Source: Myxococcales bacterium (GTDB lineage: Bacteria > Myxococcota_A > Polyangia > Polyangiales > Polyangiaceae). Taken from it: a stretch of DNA of 48,655 nucleotides. Location: assembly GCA_003153495.1 (NCBI GenBank), contig PLYU01000259.1, positions 481 to 49,135 of the forward strand, read 5' to 3'. This document shows positions 38,972-47,669 of the stretch, one piece after another; the stretch's first letter is position 1; every line of letters starts with the position of its first letter. The notes under the pieces are model-generated. The model made no database searches and was not told the DNA's origin. It saw nothing but the letters and a program-made list of their open reading frames with translations. Both the position numbers and the translations under genes were made by a program.

Positions 38972-39340
38972 ATGAGCACGCCGGCTGGCCGCAGGAACGG
39001 AGCCCGAGCCCGAGACAACGCGTTGGACGGTCAGGCCGAGACGGCCGCGCCGCCGGACGGTCTTGAGGTGGCCTGGCTCCGCATCGACGGCGAGCGGCTC
39101 GCGGTGCTGAGCTACCCGCTGGCGGCGCCGCCCGACCTCGCCGCGTTGACGCCGGCCGAGAGGGAGGTCGTTCAGGGCCTCCTCGCGGGGCGATCGAACG
39201 CGGAGATCGCACGGGCGCGCGGCACGTCGGTGCGCACCGTCGCGAACCAGGTGGGGTGCATCTTCCAGAAGCTGGGCCTAGGCTCGCGCAGAGAGCTCGC
39301 GTCCTTCGCGTCAGGGCGCTCGTGCGACGGGAAGGAGTAA
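38972..39340 (+). CDS. Short LuxR-type HTH regulator
   Basis: LTPAEREVVQGLLAGRSNAEIARARGTSVRTVANQVGCIFQKLGLGSRRELASFA. Confidence 0.82.
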   Translation: MSTPAGRRNGARARDNALDGQAETAAPPDGLEVAWLRIDGERLAVLSYPLAAPPDLAALTPAEREVVQGLLAGRSNAEIARARGTSVRTVANQVGCIFQKLGLGSRRELASFASGRSCDGKE

Positions 39341-39342
39341 CC

Positions 39343-40341
39343 GTGACCGACCTCATTCACGTCGTCGAGCGCGCGTATCGAACCGACGCCGCGACGGAAG
39401 CCGATTGGCTGAAGGGTGCGGCGGAAGCGGTTGTCGCGCTCGTGCCCGAAGCCGTCGGAACCATCAGTTACGCATTCGACGTTGCGGACAGCGGCTGGAT
39501 CGACCTTCGATCCGTCACGGAGGTGAACGTCCCGAGCGGGTTCGGTGCCGTCCTGCTCGGCGGTCCGACGACCGCTGCAGACATGGGGTCCGAGTTGCAG
39601 GGGGCGCTCGTCAACCAGTACCTGACGTTGGGGATCGGATCGCTCAAGTCGATCTTGGCGCCATTCCTGGCACAAGCCATAGTTCGCGACTATTACCGGA
39701 ACGCAATCAGCAGACACGGGTTCACCGAGTTCCTCGCCATCTCGGCGACGGACCTCACCTCGTCCGGTTGCGTGATCGGGATGCCATGCTCACGGCAGCC
39801 TGCTCTGGGGCGCTCGCACTCGGTCCGCTGGGGACGCATCGCGACGCACCTCGCAGCCGGCTTCCGGCTGTATCGCAAGCTCCAGAAGTTGCGCGGCGGC
39901 GACCCGAGCCGCGACGCCGAGGCCGTGTTGAGGCCGGACGGCCGCGTGGAGCACGCGACGGGCGGCGCGGCCACGACCGTAGGGCGTGAGGCCCTGCGCG
40001 CTGCCGCTGTTGCGGCGGACAAGGCGCGCGGCCCTATGCGGCGCCGTGATCCGGACGGCGCCGTCGCGATCTGGCGCGGGCTGGTCGCCGGACGTTGGTC
40101 GCTCGTCGACCACTTCGATCGAGATGGGCGCCGCTACGTCCTCGCCCACGTCAACGATTCGGCGACGAAGGATCCGCGTGCCCTGACCGCGCGCGAACGG
40201 GAGGTCGTCGGTTATGCGCGCCGGGGCCACTCCAACAAGCTCATCGCCTACGAGCTCGGCCTCGCGCCCAGCACCGTGGGCGCGCTGCTCACGAGAGCCA
40301 TGACCAAGCTCGGCGTATCGACCGCCGTGGATCTCACCTGA
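39343..40341 (+). CDS. LuxR-type HTH regulator with N-terminal sensor-like region
   Basis: C-terminal LTAREREVVGYARRGHSNKLIAYELGLAPSTVGALLTRAMTKLGVSTAVDL; GTG start 2 nt after the preceding stop. Confidence 0.82.
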   Translation: MTDLIHVVERAYRTDAATEADWLKGAAEAVVALVPEAVGTISYAFDVADSGWIDLRSVTEVNVPSGFGAVLLGGPTTAADMGSELQGALVNQYLTLGIGSLKSILAPFLAQAIVRDYYRNAISRHGFTEFLAISATDLTSSGCVIGMPCSRQPALGRSHSVRWGRIATHLAAGFRLYRKLQKLRGGDPSRDAEAVLRPDGRVEHATGGAATTVGREALRAAAVAADKARGPMRRRDPDGAVAIWRGLVAGRWSLVDHFDRDGRRYVLAHVNDSATKDPRALTAREREVVGYARRGHSNKLIAYELGLAPSTVGALLTRAMTKLGVSTAVDLT

Positions 40342-40427: not shown

Positions 40428-41855
40428 TCACTTCTCCTCGTCCCCGTCGTCGTCGTCTTGCCCCGAGTCGGGAATCGTCTCCCCGAGGCGCTCCCATCGC
40501 CGCTCGAGGGCCTTGCGGTCCACCCCGACCAGCCGCGCCGCCGCGCTCTTGTTTCCCCCGCACACCTCAATCGCGTGGTGCAAGACCGCGCGCTCGATGA
40601 CGTCCAGCTTCGAGCCGAGCCTGTCCGGAAGCGCGAGTAGCTGCCGAGCCATGCGCTCGATTTCGCCACGGCTGTTGCCCGAGGCGGGCGGTCGCGCCAG
40701 GTCCTCCAGCGTCTCGACGGTCACTGCATCCTCTTCGGCGAGCAAGGCAAGCCGCTCGATCACGTTCCGCAGCTCGCGGACGTTCCCCGCCCATGGCCGA
40801 CGCTCCAGCCAGGTGACAGCGCTCTCGGTGAAGCGCAGCTTGCGAGGGAGCTCGGCGGCGAACGCTGCGACGAGCTCCGGGATGTCCTCCGCGCGCTGGG
40901 CGAGCGACGGAACGCGGATGGTCACCACGTTGAGGCGGTAGAAGAGATCTTCGCGGAACCGCCCTTCGGCGATCCGTCCCTCGAGGTCGACGTGCGTCGA
41001 CGCCAGCACACGCGCCTTGAGGGGGCGCTCCTCCTCCGACCCCAGCGGGCGGAAGCGGCGGTCCTCGAGGACGCGCAGCAGCTTCGCCTGCAGCTCGATC
41101 GGCATCTCGGCGATTTCGTCGAGGAGAATCGTCCCGGCACCGGCCATCTCGAGCTGGCCTCGGGCGCGCCGGTCGGCCCCTGTGAAGGCCCCTCGCTCAT
41201 GTCCGAAGATCAGCGACTCGATTAGGGTCCCTGGCAGCGCGGAGCAATTGACGGCGATGAACGGCTCGCCATGCCGGGCGCTCAGCTCGTGGAGCGCGCG
41301 TGCCACGAGCTCCTTTCCGGTCCCCGTCTCGCCTCGGATGAGCACAGTCGCGCTGGCATCTGCCACCCGTCGCACCATGTGCCGTACGGCCTCTGTCGTG
41401 CGGGACGAGCCGACGATCGCCTTCAGTCCCCAGGTGTGCTCCACGCGCTCGCGTAGCCGCATGACCTCGCCGCGCAGGGCGAGGCGCTCGCGGAAGGTCT
41501 CTACGATCGGCAGGAGCATCTCGGGGGACAACTCCTCCTTGAGAACGTAGTCCTGCGCGCCACTGCGCATGGCCTCGCGGATCTCGCCTAGCTCGACGAG
41601 CGAGGTCACCATGACCGCGGGCACCGTGGAACCGGCCGCCCGCAGCTTCTTCAGCAGATCCAGACCCCCACGGTTGCGGGAGTCATCGGAGAGGCGGATG
41701 TCCAGGAGGAGAAGGTCGGGCGGCGTCCGGTGGATCGTGGCGAGCGCCTCTTCGACGCTGCCCGCTTCCAACACCTCGACGTCCTTCAGAGCAGCCAGGA
41801 TCTGCCGCAGAACACGCCGCGCGCTCCTCTGATCGTCGACGATCAGTACTTTCAA
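40428..41855 (-). CDS. NtrC-family sigma54-dependent response regulator
   Basis: Receiver MKVLIVDDQRSARR...LLLLDIRL; AAA+ GETGTGKE, GAFTGA, C-terminal Fis-like HTH. Confidence 0.92.
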   Translation of the reverse strand: MKVLIVDDQRSARRVLRQILAALKDVEVLEAGSVEEALATIHRTPPDLLLLDIRLSDDSRNRGGLDLLKKLRAAGSTVPAVMVTSLVELGEIREAMRSGAQDYVLKEELSPEMLLPIVETFRERLALRGEVMRLRERVEHTWGLKAIVGSSRTTEAVRHMVRRVADASATVLIRGETGTGKELVARALHELSARHGEPFIAVNCSALPGTLIESLIFGHERGAFTGADRRARGQLEMAGAGTILLDEIAEMPIELQAKLLRVLEDRRFRPLGSEEERPLKARVLASTHVDLEGRIAEGRFREDLFYRLNVVTIRVPSLAQRAEDIPELVAAFAAELPRKLRFTESAVTWLERRPWAGNVRELRNVIERLALLAEEDAVTVETLEDLARPPASGNSRGEIERMARQLLALPDRLGSKLDVIERAVLHHAIEVCGGNKSAAARLVGVDRKALERRWERLGETIPDSGQDDDDGDEEK

Positions 41856-44179
41856 TGGATCTCCCCGATCTCGCGCGCGCCCTCGTGCGCCGTCTCACTG
41901 GATGCCCTCGCGGCTGTCTCCAATACGTCGGAGGCAGGAACGCTGACCGTGAACTGCGTGCGCCCGCACACGCGAACCGCGTCGATTCGCCAGCCGTGCG
42001 CACGGACGATTCGCTGCGTGATCGCGAGCCCCAACCCCGTCCCGCGCGTCTTGGTCGTGAACCACGGGGCGAACAGGCGGGCGGGATCTCCATCGAAGCC
42101 TGGCCCATCGTCCCAGACCACCAGCTCGGCGCCCTCCGCGTCCGAGGTCCATAGCAGCCCGACGTGGCCAGCGATGCCCGTTGCGTCGAGGGCGTTGGAA
42201 ACGAGGTTCACCATCACCTGGGTCACTTGGTCCGGGTCGCATCGCAGCGCGACGCTGGGCGGCACGTCGCTGGCGAGCTCCCGGCCGCTCAGCGCATCGC
42301 GCAAGAGCACCTCGACGCGCACGACCAGGTCTGCCACCGGCACGAGCTGTCGCTCGAGACGCTGCCCCACCATGCGGCGCAGACCCGAGACGAGGCGCTC
42401 GAGGCGGTCGACCTCCTCGCGCCCGATCTCGATCTCCTCGCTTTCGAGCTTGGCGTCTTGCGCGTCGCGCTGGAACACGGAGCGGAAGAAGTTGATCGGG
42501 TAGCGCACCTCGTGCGCGATCTCGGCGGCCACCGTCTCGACGAGGGCGGCGCGCTCCACTTGCCAGGCCGCCACTTGCTGCTGGCGCCGGCGTTCGAGCT
42601 CCGCGTAGCTGTGCGCGTGTGCCAGGGCGAGCGCGGCCTGGTTCGCGATGGTGCGGAGCAGGTCGATATCGTCGCTCGTGAACAGCGCGCCCCCGCGCTT
42701 GTGCCCGACGCGCAGCGAGCCGAGTATTCGTCCCCCGAACTCTGCGAGGATGCTCCGCTCGTCGTCGCTCTCGCTGGGGGCGTCGTCATGTACGCTTGGC
42801 ACGCCATCGCCTTCGGTCGCCAGAAACTCGACCGTTTGGCACGGAAGCCAGCGGCGGACCGTTCGTTCGATGGCCTGCGCTACCTCGCTAGGATCTTTGA
42901 TCGACGTGAGCTCCTCGCTGAGCTGCTCGATCGTAGGCTTGTACTCCGAGAGGGCGGGGAAGAAGCTCCGTTCCACGACACGCATGGCCAAGTAGAGTAA
43001 CGGCGCCGAGACGAGGGCTCCGACGGCGGTGGCGCCGAGCGCGCTCCGGAAGGGAATCCCCAGGGATGCCGAGAGAGCCGCGCCTACGCCGACCGCGAAG
43101 ACGCAGGCGACCGCCCCGGCGACCGCGCGCGTGAGTACGCGCGACAGAAGGGCACGGCTACCCCATAGATCGTGGCGCATGAAGGCGACACCCGTCGCGA
43201 CAGGCGCCAGCCCCATTGCGGGAATTGCGAAGAACGCGGCGACGGACCCACGAGAGCTGAGCTGAGCCACCAGAACGCCGAACCCGACGAGCACGTATGG
43301 CGTTGCCGTCGCGCGGAACAGGACGCGCAGAATGTCCCTCCGGGTTCCGTTGGCGTGTGCGTAGCGCACTCCGAGCACGACCACGAACATGATCAAAGCC
43401 CCGCCGAGAAGGAGCGTGCAGGCGCTTCGGATCCCCGTCACGGGGGCGCCGACTGCGTTTCGCGCAGTCCACACCGCGGCCAGTAGCACTGCGGGGACGT
43501 CGAGCGCGCGAGGCAGCCAGGGAAGGCGCCGAACAAGGGCGACGTCGTCGGGAATCCTGAGCGTCAGTGCCACCAGGGCGAAAGGGGCCCACGCCTGAGA
43601 AGCGTCGAATAGAGGGACCATCGAGCGCGTCGTGTGTGCGTCGAAGAACGTCAAGAAATAGATCGACGTGAGCAGAGCGAACTTCAGGAATGCGCGAGCG
43701 AGAACGCCCCGAGGGCTGCTGCTCAAGGCCACGATCCCGGCGAGCGCGTAGAGCGCGCCGACGAAGATCACCGTGCCGCCGTAGAGCCACCAGCTGGCCT
43801 CGTCGAGCGCTCCCAAACGAAGGTCGAGCTGGCGGGAGCCGGTAGCAGTCAGGACCTCCACGTGCACCGATGGATGTCGTTCCCTGTCGGCCTTCGCAAT
43901 AGCGCGATCCCAAGCGCGCGCGGCGTACTCTCCTCCAGAGGACTTCAGGGGGGCGCCGTCGACCGAGACGATCCGGTCGGGGAAACGTAGCCCTTGCTCG
44001 ATGCCGTCCCACGTCGGCATTCCGATGCTGGAGACGTTCCCTTCGGGGGTAAGGAGGATGCCAGGGAAGGGGTGCTGGTACCACTCTGCCGCTTGCTGGA
44101 GAGCCACCGCCGCAAGGAGGGCCGCCGCCATCGCGATGGCCGCGACGGCGAACGGGACCTTCGGGGCTGTGGTGCTCAT
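41852..44179 (-). CDS. Multi-TM sensor histidine kinase with N-terminal PDZ-like segment and GAF
   Basis: TM1 then GIEQGLRFPDRIVSVDGAPL..., several TMs, GAF-like region, AEIAHEVRYPINFF H-box, NLVSNALDAT / DDGPGFDGD / TKTRGTGLGLAI; ATGA overlap with the RR. Confidence 0.88.
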   Translation of the reverse strand: MSTTAPKVPFAVAAIAMAAALLAAVALQQAAEWYQHPFPGILLTPEGNVSSIGMPTWDGIEQGLRFPDRIVSVDGAPLKSSGGEYAARAWDRAIAKADRERHPSVHVEVLTATGSRQLDLRLGALDEASWWLYGGTVIFVGALYALAGIVALSSSPRGVLARAFLKFALLTSIYFLTFFDAHTTRSMVPLFDASQAWAPFALVALTLRIPDDVALVRRLPWLPRALDVPAVLLAAVWTARNAVGAPVTGIRSACTLLLGGALIMFVVVLGVRYAHANGTRRDILRVLFRATATPYVLVGFGVLVAQLSSRGSVAAFFAIPAMGLAPVATGVAFMRHDLWGSRALLSRVLTRAVAGAVACVFAVGVGAALSASLGIPFRSALGATAVGALVSAPLLYLAMRVVERSFFPALSEYKPTIEQLSEELTSIKDPSEVAQAIERTVRRWLPCQTVEFLATEGDGVPSVHDDAPSESDDERSILAEFGGRILGSLRVGHKRGGALFTSDDIDLLRTIANQAALALAHAHSYAELERRRQQQVAAWQVERAALVETVAAEIAHEVRYPINFFRSVFQRDAQDAKLESEEIEIGREEVDRLERLVSGLRRMVGQRLERQLVPVADLVVRVEVLLRDALSGRELASDVPPSVALRCDPDQVTQVMVNLVSNALDATGIAGHVGLLWTSDAEGAELVVWDDGPGFDGDPARLFAPWFTTKTRGTGLGLAITQRIVRAHGWRIDAVRVCGRTQFTVSVPASDVLETAARASSETAHEGAREIGEIH

Positions 44180-44224: not shown

Positions 44225-46057
44225 TTAGGCGCTGCGCAAGGTCTCGGAAACGGTAGCCGATTGTCCTTGGGCGGTCGCCGAGGAGCTGGACCACACCGTG
44301 CGGAACAAGTCGAGCACGCCGTTCTCGAGCCGCGCGCAGTCCAAGTCCGAGTCGGCGCACGCGCGGGTCAGGACATCGGTCGTTCGCCGGAGCTCCTCGC
44401 GCACCTTGGGGGGTGCCGTCTGGGCAGCGAGCAGGCTCCGCGCGAGCAGCGCGAGCTGTCTCGCCAGGGCGCCCGGCGTCTGCGTCCTGGCGCGCGAGGG
44501 ACGCGCCGCGATGAGTCGGGCGTGGCGGAGTACGGCGCGAACGGCGTGCTCGATATCGGGGCGCGAGAGAAGCGTTCGGACGGCCCAGCCCGACAAGTCC
44601 GCCGAATACGGGCGCTTGGCGCAAGTCGACCATCCTCGAGCGGCCTCCTCCTCACCCATGGCAAGCAGGGCCAGGGCAAAAGGATCCCGGGCAGCCGCGC
44701 AAGCGCGGGTCGCGTTCAGTCGACCGTAGCCGTGCTTTGCATCGTGGCCGTCCGGATCGCGGCCGAGAGGCAGGACGTCCGCCGGATCGACGAGGTTCGC
44801 TTCCGCGGCCTCGGTCGGCCCGGGAGCGTCCGCCGTACGGCTGAGGATCGAATGCAGCTCGTGCAACTGGAGCGCCGGGTTACAGCCCAAGACGAGAGCG
44901 ACGACGCCCGCGGCGATCGCCGACGCGCCGCTCGACTCGGCGTGGAAGAGGCGTTCGTGAGTCGAGAACGGGTGGGCGATGTCGTCTCCCGGCGCCGTCC
45001 ACCGCACGGCGGGCCCGCGGTTCGCGAATGGACGCAACTTGCCATCGCGGAGGCGCGGGAAAAGAAACCAACCGCCCCGACGTCCCCCCGGCGCTACGCA
45101 GTGGACGCGCGGATCGCTTGCCGGATCACCCAGTGTCAGCGAGAGGCTCGCGTGAACGGACCCTTCGGGGCTGGACGCCTCGCGCCCCGTCGGCAACACG
45201 ACGACGCTTCCGCGCCCTTTGCGGCCCAGCCGAACCGCGACCTCCAGTGCGTCATCGAGCATCGGACTCGTCGTTCCCTCGACGTAGGTGGCGCAGACGA
45301 TCACGTCGGCGCCCTCGAAGACCGCGCGCGCGATGGCCAGCGGAAGTGAGAAGACGTCGATGCCCGCCTTCGAGATGCAATACGCGCGCACCGACGTGTC
45401 AGGCGCGATTCCCGCGAAGTGACTTCCGTCGCTCCGAATGGCGCCGGACGCCCAGGCGATCATGAGGGCGGCGTGCCCGTTGACGGTGGGCGACCGTTCG
45501 ACCCCCACGCAGGTGGTTCGGTCCAGCTCGAGATGCTCGAAGTCGGCGGTGTCGTCGTCAATGACCGCCAGGCGGGTGCCCGCGCCAGTCCTACATACCG
45601 CACGATCCATACGAATCCCGCCGCCTTCGCCTAGAAACCAGAGGCCTCCCGAGGTCGGCGCGACGGCCAAGCTTCGCTGCCGTCGCACTCGCCAACCGGC
45701 GCCATGGACGGGAGGTGCGTCGGCGAAGTCGAGCGATGGAGGGAGCGCCATGGTTCCCACGCGGGCGGAGGCCAGGTATCGGACGGCGATTCGGGCTCGC
45801 GAGAGAATCTCCGCGACGTCCGCGCGCATGATGCGAACGGTGGCGGATCGGACGCGCGTCCAGTAGAGCGGCGCCCGCGCGAGGAGCGTCTCGACTACAA
45901 CGTCCGTTCCGAGATCTTGCAGCGCCTCGCTGAACGCGGCGGTCGGCACGTGGTCGTACGTCGCGATGACCACGTCCAGCAGCTCTCGCCCGTCGCTCGT
46001 CGGCCCGTGCGAAGGCGCTTCGTACGGGAAATCCCAATCGTGGAGTATTCGCTTCAT
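44225..46057 (-). CDS. Subtilisin-like (S8-fold) protease, no signal peptide
   Basis: By-eye catalytic matches: LAVIDDD (Asp), VNGHAALMIAWASG (His), ESSGASAIAAGVVALVLG (Ser); ATGA overlap with upstream gene. Confidence 0.72.
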   Translation of the reverse strand: MKRILHDWDFPYEAPSHGPTSDGRELLDVVIATYDHVPTAAFSEALQDLGTDVVVETLLARAPLYWTRVRSATVRIMRADVAEILSRARIAVRYLASARVGTMALPPSLDFADAPPVHGAGWRVRRQRSLAVAPTSGGLWFLGEGGGIRMDRAVCRTGAGTRLAVIDDDTADFEHLELDRTTCVGVERSPTVNGHAALMIAWASGAIRSDGSHFAGIAPDTSVRAYCISKAGIDVFSLPLAIARAVFEGADVIVCATYVEGTTSPMLDDALEVAVRLGRKGRGSVVVLPTGREASSPEGSVHASLSLTLGDPASDPRVHCVAPGGRRGGWFLFPRLRDGKLRPFANRGPAVRWTAPGDDIAHPFSTHERLFHAESSGASAIAAGVVALVLGCNPALQLHELHSILSRTADAPGPTEAAEANLVDPADVLPLGRDPDGHDAKHGYGRLNATRACAAARDPFALALLAMGEEEAARGWSTCAKRPYSADLSGWAVRTLLSRPDIEHAVRAVLRHARLIAARPSRARTQTPGALARQLALLARSLLAAQTAPPKVREELRRTTDVLTRACADSDLDCARLENGVLDLFRTVWSSSSATAQGQSATVSETLRSA

Positions 46058-47019
46058 GAGAGCACCTCCCCTGCCCAGGCCGCGAGCGCATGCGCCCGCA
46101 CTGCGTATCCGGGATGACGTGTCTCCCCCGCGACCAGCCCCTGAAGTCGCGCCTCCTGCGCTGCGGCCCACGAGGCGAGCCGGGGTGCGTTCAGCGCCGA
46201 CGCGCGCATCCGGGCGAGCCCCATGTGCTGCTGCGCTCGAACGAGCATGCGCCGGAGCACCCCCGAGTGGAGCACGTGCTTGCGCATGCTCGCGCCCGCA
46301 GTCGGCCGCTCCCCCGAGGATGGAGGTGGCACGCTCCCCTTCATGAGGCAGACGGCCCATGCGCCGCCGCCTTTCAGATCGTCCTCCCAGTCCACGACGT
46401 CGTCCGCCATCTGCAGGCCCAGCCACACCGATTCGAGCGTCGTGCGCACCGAGTCGCACCGTCCCTCGCTCCAGCCGGCGACGCGCGCCAGCCCCGTGCT
46501 CGCCACGAGCCCGGCGCACTGCTTGTCGAGCGACGCTCGTTCATAGAGGTCCATGTCCATCGCCTGGCCGGACTCGAGCAGCGAGCGCTCGCTACGGATC
46601 GCGCGCAGGGAAAGGACATCGGCCGGCCCGAAGTCGCAGCCGGGCGGTGCCTGTCCGCCGAAGAGCCGTGCGATGGCGCGATCGCGCTCGTGCCGCGCCC
46701 GTCCGAGGACGGCGGTGACGGTGGGTGACACGGGAATCTGCCCGTCTTCGATCCGGTCGGTCCCGAACGCGTCGATGACGGCAAGAGCGTGCGCCATCAC
46801 CGCGTCGCGGACCGCCTGGCGGGAGACGCCTGGCATGGCTTCGGCGAACAGCGCGGGAGCGCCGAGCGTCGCCTCGTGCGAGAAGACCCGACTCCACGGG
46901 ACACGCTCCGGCGCGAGCCGGAGCGCGCGGGGAAGATCCCGCGCGCTCTCGGCCAGCGGCTCTCCGAGCCCCTCGGCGAACGCCTCGAAGAGCTCATCGA
47001 CAAGCTCGAAGATGTTCAT
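46054..47019 (-). CDS. Isoprenoid-synthase-fold enzyme (polyprenyl synthase/ComQ-like)
   Basis: GQAMDMDLYERASLDKQCAGLVA ... VWLGLQMADDVVDWEDDLKGG, matching the second Asp-rich region of trans-prenyltransferases; TGATG overlap with upstream small ORF. Confidence 0.7.
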   Translation of the reverse strand: MNIFELVDELFEAFAEGLGEPLAESARDLPRALRLAPERVPWSRVFSHEATLGAPALFAEAMPGVSRQAVRDAVMAHALAVIDAFGTDRIEDGQIPVSPTVTAVLGRARHERDRAIARLFGGQAPPGCDFGPADVLSLRAIRSERSLLESGQAMDMDLYERASLDKQCAGLVASTGLARVAGWSEGRCDSVRTTLESVWLGLQMADDVVDWEDDLKGGGAWAVCLMKGSVPPPSSGERPTAGASMRKHVLHSGVLRRMLVRAQQHMGLARMRASALNAPRLASWAAAQEARLQGLVAGETRHPGYAVRAHALAAWAGEVLS

Positions 47020-47333
47020 CAGTAGATGTTCGACTCCTTCCACGGGGACAGCGACACGTTGAACCGCTCCTCGACGACGATCGCTCGCCACTGCAGCGTC
47101 TGCGTCGCGCTGAGCCCGCCGAAGTTGCCGCCGACCCAGGCGCGAATCCTCTCGTTGAGCTTGTCGCGCGCGCTCGCGGCCGCGGTCGGCTCCTCGTCGG
47201 CCTGGCGGGGATCGAAGTCGTAGAGCGCGAGCAGGCGCTTGAACTCGTCGAACCGTTCCTGGTCGGCGAGGAGCGCCTGATAGAGAGAGCGGAGCTGGGC
47301 GTGGGGATCGTTGACCTGAGCTTGTACTGACAT
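47019..47333 (-). CDS. Small 104-aa protein, candidate peptide precursor
   Basis: Shine-Dalgarno aggag upstream of ATG 47333; ends ...RFNVSLSPWKESNIY; coupled to the isoprenoid-synthase-like gene. Confidence 0.7.
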   Translation of the reverse strand: MSVQAQVNDPHAQLRSLYQALLADQERFDEFKRLLALYDFDPRQADEEPTAAASARDKLNERIRAWVGGNFGGLSATQTLQWRAIVVEERFNVSLSPWKESNIY

Positions 47334-47669
47334 GGGGTGTTTCTCCTGGTTGGCGCCCGCACGCTGGTGCGTATGCGTCACAGGACCCCTGAGCACGCTT
47401 CGTGCGAGGTCCCGGACGCGCGAAACTGTTCAGGAAGTCGGCAATGGCAAGAGGTGCCTGTGCCCGGAAGCGACCAGGGCTTGCCCTGATCCGACCAGCC
47501 ATCGTCTCGGGCCGCGGCGCGCGGCCTGGGGTCCGACCGCTGCGGCGCCGACCCTCCCTCATGGAATCTATGCCCCGGGCGGTCCCCGCCCCGACTTCGC
47601 TTGTTTCGTGAGAGTTTCCCTCGCCGCAGCAGGCGCCCCACGAGCTCGCGTGGTACCTATGCGCACCCC

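Follow-up and report, generated by a model that had tools for sequence, protein, structure and literature searches.

A short reading frame beside an enzyme gene, in the 48,655-nucleotide stretch of myxobacterial DNA analysed here (the window), raises the question of whether it encodes the precursor of a modified peptide signal, comparable with ComX. The sequence-only reading had described a 104-amino-acid product ending in SLSPWKESNIY, with Trp as the seventh residue from the C-terminus and two further Trp residues (RAWVGG and LQWRAI). All of this was retrieved on the minus strand: the frame, here termed X, extends from an ATG at 47333, with a ribosome-binding-like AGGAG 5' of it, to a TGA stop at 47021-47019, and the further residues are Trp66 and Trp82. 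The precursor-like small protein indeed lies beside an enzyme, which has the fold of trans-isoprenyl diphosphate synthases (trans-IDS). That reading had left unmentioned a histidine kinase and a response regulator encoded further downstream.

Organization and distribution of the operon

X is the first of five genes on one strand, in the order X-Q-S8-HK-RR. The features of the locus are:

47461..47497, minus strand: tandem direct repeat TGGTCGGATCAGGGCA-N5-TGGTCGCTTCCGGGCA, putative operator of RR, upstream of X in 13/13 genomes
47019..47333, minus strand: X, putative signal-peptide precursor of 104 aa, with full-length homologues in 13 genomes and an AF2 model
47022..47060, minus strand: codons of the C-terminal tail of X, residues 92-104 (NVSLSPWKESNIY), the likely core, with invariant Trp98, low diversity and pS>>pN
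47040-47042, minus strand: Trp98 codon
46054..47019, minus strand: Q, 321-aa enzyme of trans-isoprenyl-diphosphate-synthase fold, with a FARM-like (DRIED) and a SARM-like (LQMADDVVDWEDD) motif
44225..46057, minus strand: S8 subtilase, 610 aa, with Asp/His/Ser triad motifs (PF00082, 3.8e-5)
41852..44179, minus strand: HK, sensor kinase of 775 aa, with TM1, an extracytoplasmic loop of about 105 aa, further TMs, GAF and HisKA/HATPase
43790..44101, minus strand: PDZ-like extracytoplasmic loop of HK between TM1 and TM2, from a comparison of the loop profile with the PDB
40428..41855, minus strand: RR, NtrC-type response regulator, with receiver, sigma-54 AAA+ (GAFTGA) and Fis HTH

X is not a chance reading frame. 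Full-length homologues of about 101-104 residues, 57-76% identical, occurred in 13 genomes, counting that of the window, out of 184 in the order, all belonging to one family (Polyangiaceae, according to the named records) and including Sorangium cellulosum So ce26, So ceGT47 and Minicystis rosea. In each of them Q was located directly 3' of X, and ten loci carried the complete operon in the same order; in G174 the contig stops inside S8, and the G151 and G152 loci kept X, Q, HK and RR, the subtilase being absent there. X and Q overlap by one base (TGATG), Q and S8 through ATGA, and HK and RR through TTGA, indicating that these pairs are probably translationally coupled. Beyond the synteny that close relatives show, the X loci of different genera had no other genes in common; conserved exporter or immunity genes were likewise not found across genera at these loci, the operon itself contained no exporter, and a search for a plasmid origin gave no match. 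A gene for a LuxR/GerE-type regulator of 361 aa (window positions 39256-40341, plus strand) is convergent with the operon end, and no homologue of it was found in the flanks examined at other X loci.

Conservation and architecture of X

Across six genera, diversity (pi) was 0.256 for RR, 0.318 for X, 0.461 for HK, 0.484 for S8 and 0.503 for Q, X thus being more conserved than enzyme, protease or kinase. Within X, diversity was high at residues 39-55 (pi 0.57) and lowest at residues 80-104 (pi 0.12; 0.12-0.15 for the tail). Furthermore, pS was 0.44 and pN 0.08 over the last 28 codons, indicating strong purifying selection on the protein sequence. Trp66, Trp82 and Trp98 were invariant in the 13 sequences; in G151 (L024) and G152 (L025) the tail is shortened to WKESN or WRESN, so that the Trp is fifth from the end. 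The AF2 model placed helices at residues 10-23, 25-37, 50-67 and 76-87, with low confidence from about residue 90 and pLDDT<50 for residues 96-104, suggesting that X consists of a leader and a flexible, conserved tail. This agrees with the helical, leader-like part seen by the sequence-only reading, which had also expected homologues to retain the Trp within about ten hypervariable C-terminal residues. The Trp was retained; the prediction of a hypervariable tail was refuted, since no part of X is more conserved than the tail. Nor did the homologues form a uniform globular domain lacking a C-terminal Trp.

The comparison with the ComX profile (PF05952) that had been proposed at the same time gave no match for X at E<=1; genome-wide the profile also matched nothing, in a search that was not very sensitive, as the control too scored only below the cut-off. 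Similarly, X matched none of the NHLP/RiPP leader-peptide models of NCBIfam, and nothing among solved structures, by sequence or by fold.

The enzyme Q

Pfam returned nothing for Q, including PF00348, for which the best value was 0.011 in one of seven members. The Q profile matched octaprenyl diphosphate synthases (E 3e-5), and the AF2 model (pLDDT 92) had trans-isoprenyl diphosphate synthases or relatives as all of its 50 best PDB folds; these included Ord1, a Trp farnesyltransferase, and its Q216A and D219A mutants. One helix of the model ends in DRIxD(x)Q and another in LQxxDDVxDW; the SARM DDxxD is intact and the FARM is altered to DRxxDxQ, DRIxD replacing the canonical DDxxD. In farnesyl diphosphate synthases, the FARM contributes its first and its last Asp to metal binding and the SARM its first; in Q these are D88, D92 and D206. 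The likely functional members keep them; they are missing or altered in G152, in an additional Q copy of G001 and in the orphan Q genes of G486 and G367. In addition, the Gln and the first SARM Asp of the second motif were invariant among likely functional members, with the Gln-x-x-Asp spacing of Q216/D219 in Ord1. As canonical trans-IDS also show an FQxxDD pattern, this element is weakly diagnostic. In Ord1, a review ties Q216 to Trp recognition (PMC13290415).

Copies of Q without X were retrieved as well. The second, tandem copy of G001 (L007:8835-9791, plus strand) has its own tandem operator, and the first Asp is gone from its FARM-like motif (TARIED). Orphan relatives were present at L093 (G486), L094 (G367), L064 (G005) and L065-L067 (G158-G160), those of G486 and G367 perhaps having a non-enzymatic role. 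A candidate relative in G398 was rejected as an unrelated polyprenyl-synthase-like gene.

Protease, sensor kinase and putative operator

The S8 triad motifs were conserved in the ten complete homologues and an obvious signal peptide was absent; S8 is the probable maturation protease. Full-length homologues of HK contained about 7-12 hydrophobic segments each. Compared with the PDB, its loop profile matched almost exclusively PDZ domains (best 2.8e-4). Domains of this kind bind free C-termini; the conserved precursor ends of this and the sister systems described below (-SNxY, -LIY and -LGW) fit such a role, and the loop may contact them. In G152, the kinase has no N-terminal sensor or loop and Q shows degraded motifs; in both G151 and G152 the circuit appears to be in decay.

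The repeat unit upstream of X comprises 16 bp (TGGTCGGATCCGGGCA), with 5-6 bp between the copies in the 13 genomes, and mononucleotide shuffles never scored as high as the observed repeats. A search with a pattern spanning both copies, single half-sites being outside its reach, and allowing up to three mismatches, found one site per genome in nine genomes and two each in G001 and the window's own genome; the copies of G151 and G152, which diverge more, escaped it, and a reversed control pattern gave 0 matches. The tandem repeat thus occurs upstream of X and nearly nowhere else, which suggests tight autoregulation. The second site of G001 belongs to its second Q copy. That of the window's genome (G000:C229:1561-1596; L083) lies about 120 bp upstream of a gene for a predicted secreted protein of 334 aa, which had no family matches and did not recur elsewhere among the genomes of the family. 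No sigma-70 promoter was found upstream of X, and in a search for sigma-54 -24/-12 elements only Sorangium and G033 showed GG-N10-GC candidates, near -57, while the window offered no convincing one.

Sister systems in two other families

Searches with profiles across the order and the phylum revealed two further layouts, with other proteases. G075, of another family, contained a precursor ending in GGAGQPGILGW, Q, a C39-like cysteine protease that Pfam matched weakly (E 0.06), and a kinase and regulator that share their types with those of the window (30% and 49% identity). In G060 and G062, of a third family, the precursors end in APYNLPPGGLIY, APYNVPSTGLIY and APYNVPATGLLY, each with a clostripain-like protease beside it, and the loci also hold Q, kinase and regulator. 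These proteases were assigned through a Pfam C11 match for one (E 0.001) and ISHG and QSCxAGG motifs seen by eye in all. Clostripain cleaves after Arg or Lys, and each of the three precursors has such a residue immediately ahead of its conserved tail (Arg before QSAPYNVPSTGLIY and QSAPYNVPATGLLY, Lys before AAAPYNLPPGGLIY). The tails of G060 and G062 lack Trp, which is conserved only at the N-terminus, so that the group as a whole cannot be taken to prenylate Trp. Subtilase, C39-like and clostripain-like enzymes, unrelated to one another, thus pair with three precursor types; of all the evidence, it is their shared position that speaks most strongly for maturation by proteolysis. A tandem operator was not evident at the sister loci.

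The G075, G060 and G062 loci further encode class II terpene-cyclase-like alpha/alpha-toroid proteins with a DxDxTA-like motif, whose profile, run against the PDB, matched drimenol synthase and squalene-hopene cyclase with values of about 1e-6 to 1e-7 (best 2e-7); such a protein was found at none of the X loci.

L068, 2196..3266, plus strand: class II terpene-cyclase-like protein, sister locus with Q
L095, 15600..16628, minus strand: class II terpene-cyclase-like protein, sister locus with Q
L096, 9187..10461, minus strand: class II terpene-cyclase-like protein, sister locus with Q

Comparison with known prenylated-peptide systems

In ComQXPA (ComX, PF05952; ComQ, IPR033965), too, a precursor with a near-C-terminal Trp adjoins a trans-IDS-fold enzyme and is followed on the same strand by a multi-TM kinase and a regulator, and X has its Trp within the 5-10 C-terminal residues typical of ComX. 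X is longer (about 101-104 aa) than the B. subtilis ComX precursor (52-73 residues; PMC4008528), its tail is invariant and it is not the least conserved member of its operon. In Bacillus, the order of conservation is ComA>ComP>ComQ>ComX, ComX being the most variable (PMC4008528); its diversity of 0.63-0.70 compares with 0.32 for X. The X operon differs further in its dedicated protease, its PDZ-like sensor loop and its Myxococcota host. ComQ and Q share the isoprenoid-synthase fold, although Q has no PF00348 match, and their motifs are reversed: ComQ keeps the FARM and has a degenerate SARM (PMC10853753), whereas in Q the SARM is intact and the FARM changed. ComP and HK both have a multi-TM N-terminal sensor, but ComP/ComA combine HisKA_3 with REC-GerE, and HK/RR combine HisKA and HATPase_c with an NtrC-type regulator.

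The PalX/PalQ/PalP system of Paenibacillus alvei (PMC10853753) likewise unites a kinase, a precursor and a remote trans-IDS-like Trp prenyltransferase. PalX ends in Trp, as does only the G075 sister precursor, whereas X ends in WKESNIY; PalQ tolerates no C-terminal extension and Trp98 stands six residues before the end of X. PalX carries an NHLP-type leader, for which no model matches X, and protease and regulator lie within the operon only here. Ord1 (PDB 9v4g) resembles the Q model (TM about 0.6) and shares the Gln-x-x-Asp of the second motif, but acts on free Trp. ChrPC (PMC13290415) pairs prenyltransferase and cyclase domains, and Q likewise has a terpene-cyclase-like partner at the sister loci; ChrPC is a fusion, and the window locus lacks a cyclase gene. 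X would work like a ComX or PalX precursor while failing the family tests for ComX, ComP/ComA and NHLP leaders, as a variant of prenyl-peptide two-component signalling.

Proposed function and alternative explanations

The gene set, conservation, folds, catalytic motifs and putative operator can be read together as a self-contained, autoregulated ComQXPA/PalXQP-like module, in which X is, with somewhat better than even probability, a ribosomally made precursor that gives rise to a secreted peptide signal. Q, translated in overlap with X, would bind the helical leader and put a prenyl group on the tail, most likely on Trp98, a plausible acceptor. The subtilase would then remove the leader in the cytoplasm, yielding a short C-terminal peptide around NVSLSPWKESNIY that would leave the cytoplasm, and its free C-terminus (-SNIY) may be bound by the PDZ-like loop of HK. 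HK would phosphorylate RR, which would bind the tandem repeat and turn on the operon in a positive loop. Several findings count against a signal precursor: the near-invariant tail, unlike known pheromone pherotypes; the modified FARM (DRIxD); the operon without exporter; the G151/G152 loci without subtilase; G152 without sensor loop; the lack of a leader-peptide family for X; and the Trp-less clostripain-type tails.

The strong conservation of X relative to Q and its almost invariant tail, together with the one-base overlap and the trans-IDS fold, would also suit a stable small partner or adaptor of Q, whose small terpenoid product would be sensed by the kinase, with the protease serving turnover. 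This is improbable, as disorder is predicted for the conserved tail, each of three unrelated precursors comes with a protease unrelated to the others, the sensor loop resembles a C-terminus binder and DRIxD stands in place of the canonical DDxxD. Slightly less probable still is a bioactive RiPP, a lipopeptide antibiotic that, like nisin, induces its own operon and is not a communication signal; a dedicated protease and modifying enzyme, the terpene-cyclase-like genes at the G075, G060 and G062 loci and the autoregulatory putative operator point that way, whereas an exporter or immunity gene is conserved at none of the loci and the product region is near-constant between genera, which is unusual for antibiotics. 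That X is a true ComX acquired from Firmicutes by horizontal transfer, as gene content (precursor, trans-IDS-fold enzyme, multi-TM kinase and regulator) and the Trp seventh from the end might suggest, is very improbable: PF05952 is unmatched, Q has no PF00348 match above the cut-off, kinase (HisKA, not HisKA_3) and regulator (NtrC type, not GerE) are of other classes and the conservation order is reversed relative to Bacillus. Membership of the ComX family is therefore contradicted by the profile, kinase/regulator class and conservation tests.

If X is indeed a signal precursor, it and its sister systems might, more speculatively, represent Gram-negative lipopeptide pheromone circuits in which the periplasmic PDZ domain of the kinase reads the free C-terminus of a prenylated (in the sisters perhaps also cyclised) ribosomal peptide, with interchangeable maturation proteases and a change from Trp to another acceptor in one lineage. 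In a 2014 census, ComX-type prenylated peptide signalling was found in Firmicutes only (PMC4008528), and our literature searches, with most subscription journals outside their coverage, retrieved no earlier description and no myxobacterial case. If the signalling role is true, Gram-negative social bacteria would have a version of their own, in which the protease is built in and the receptor is of PDZ type, and questions on ComX, such as precursor cleavage and peptide recognition by the kinase, would become testable in Sorangium cellulosum So ce26 and Minicystis rosea.
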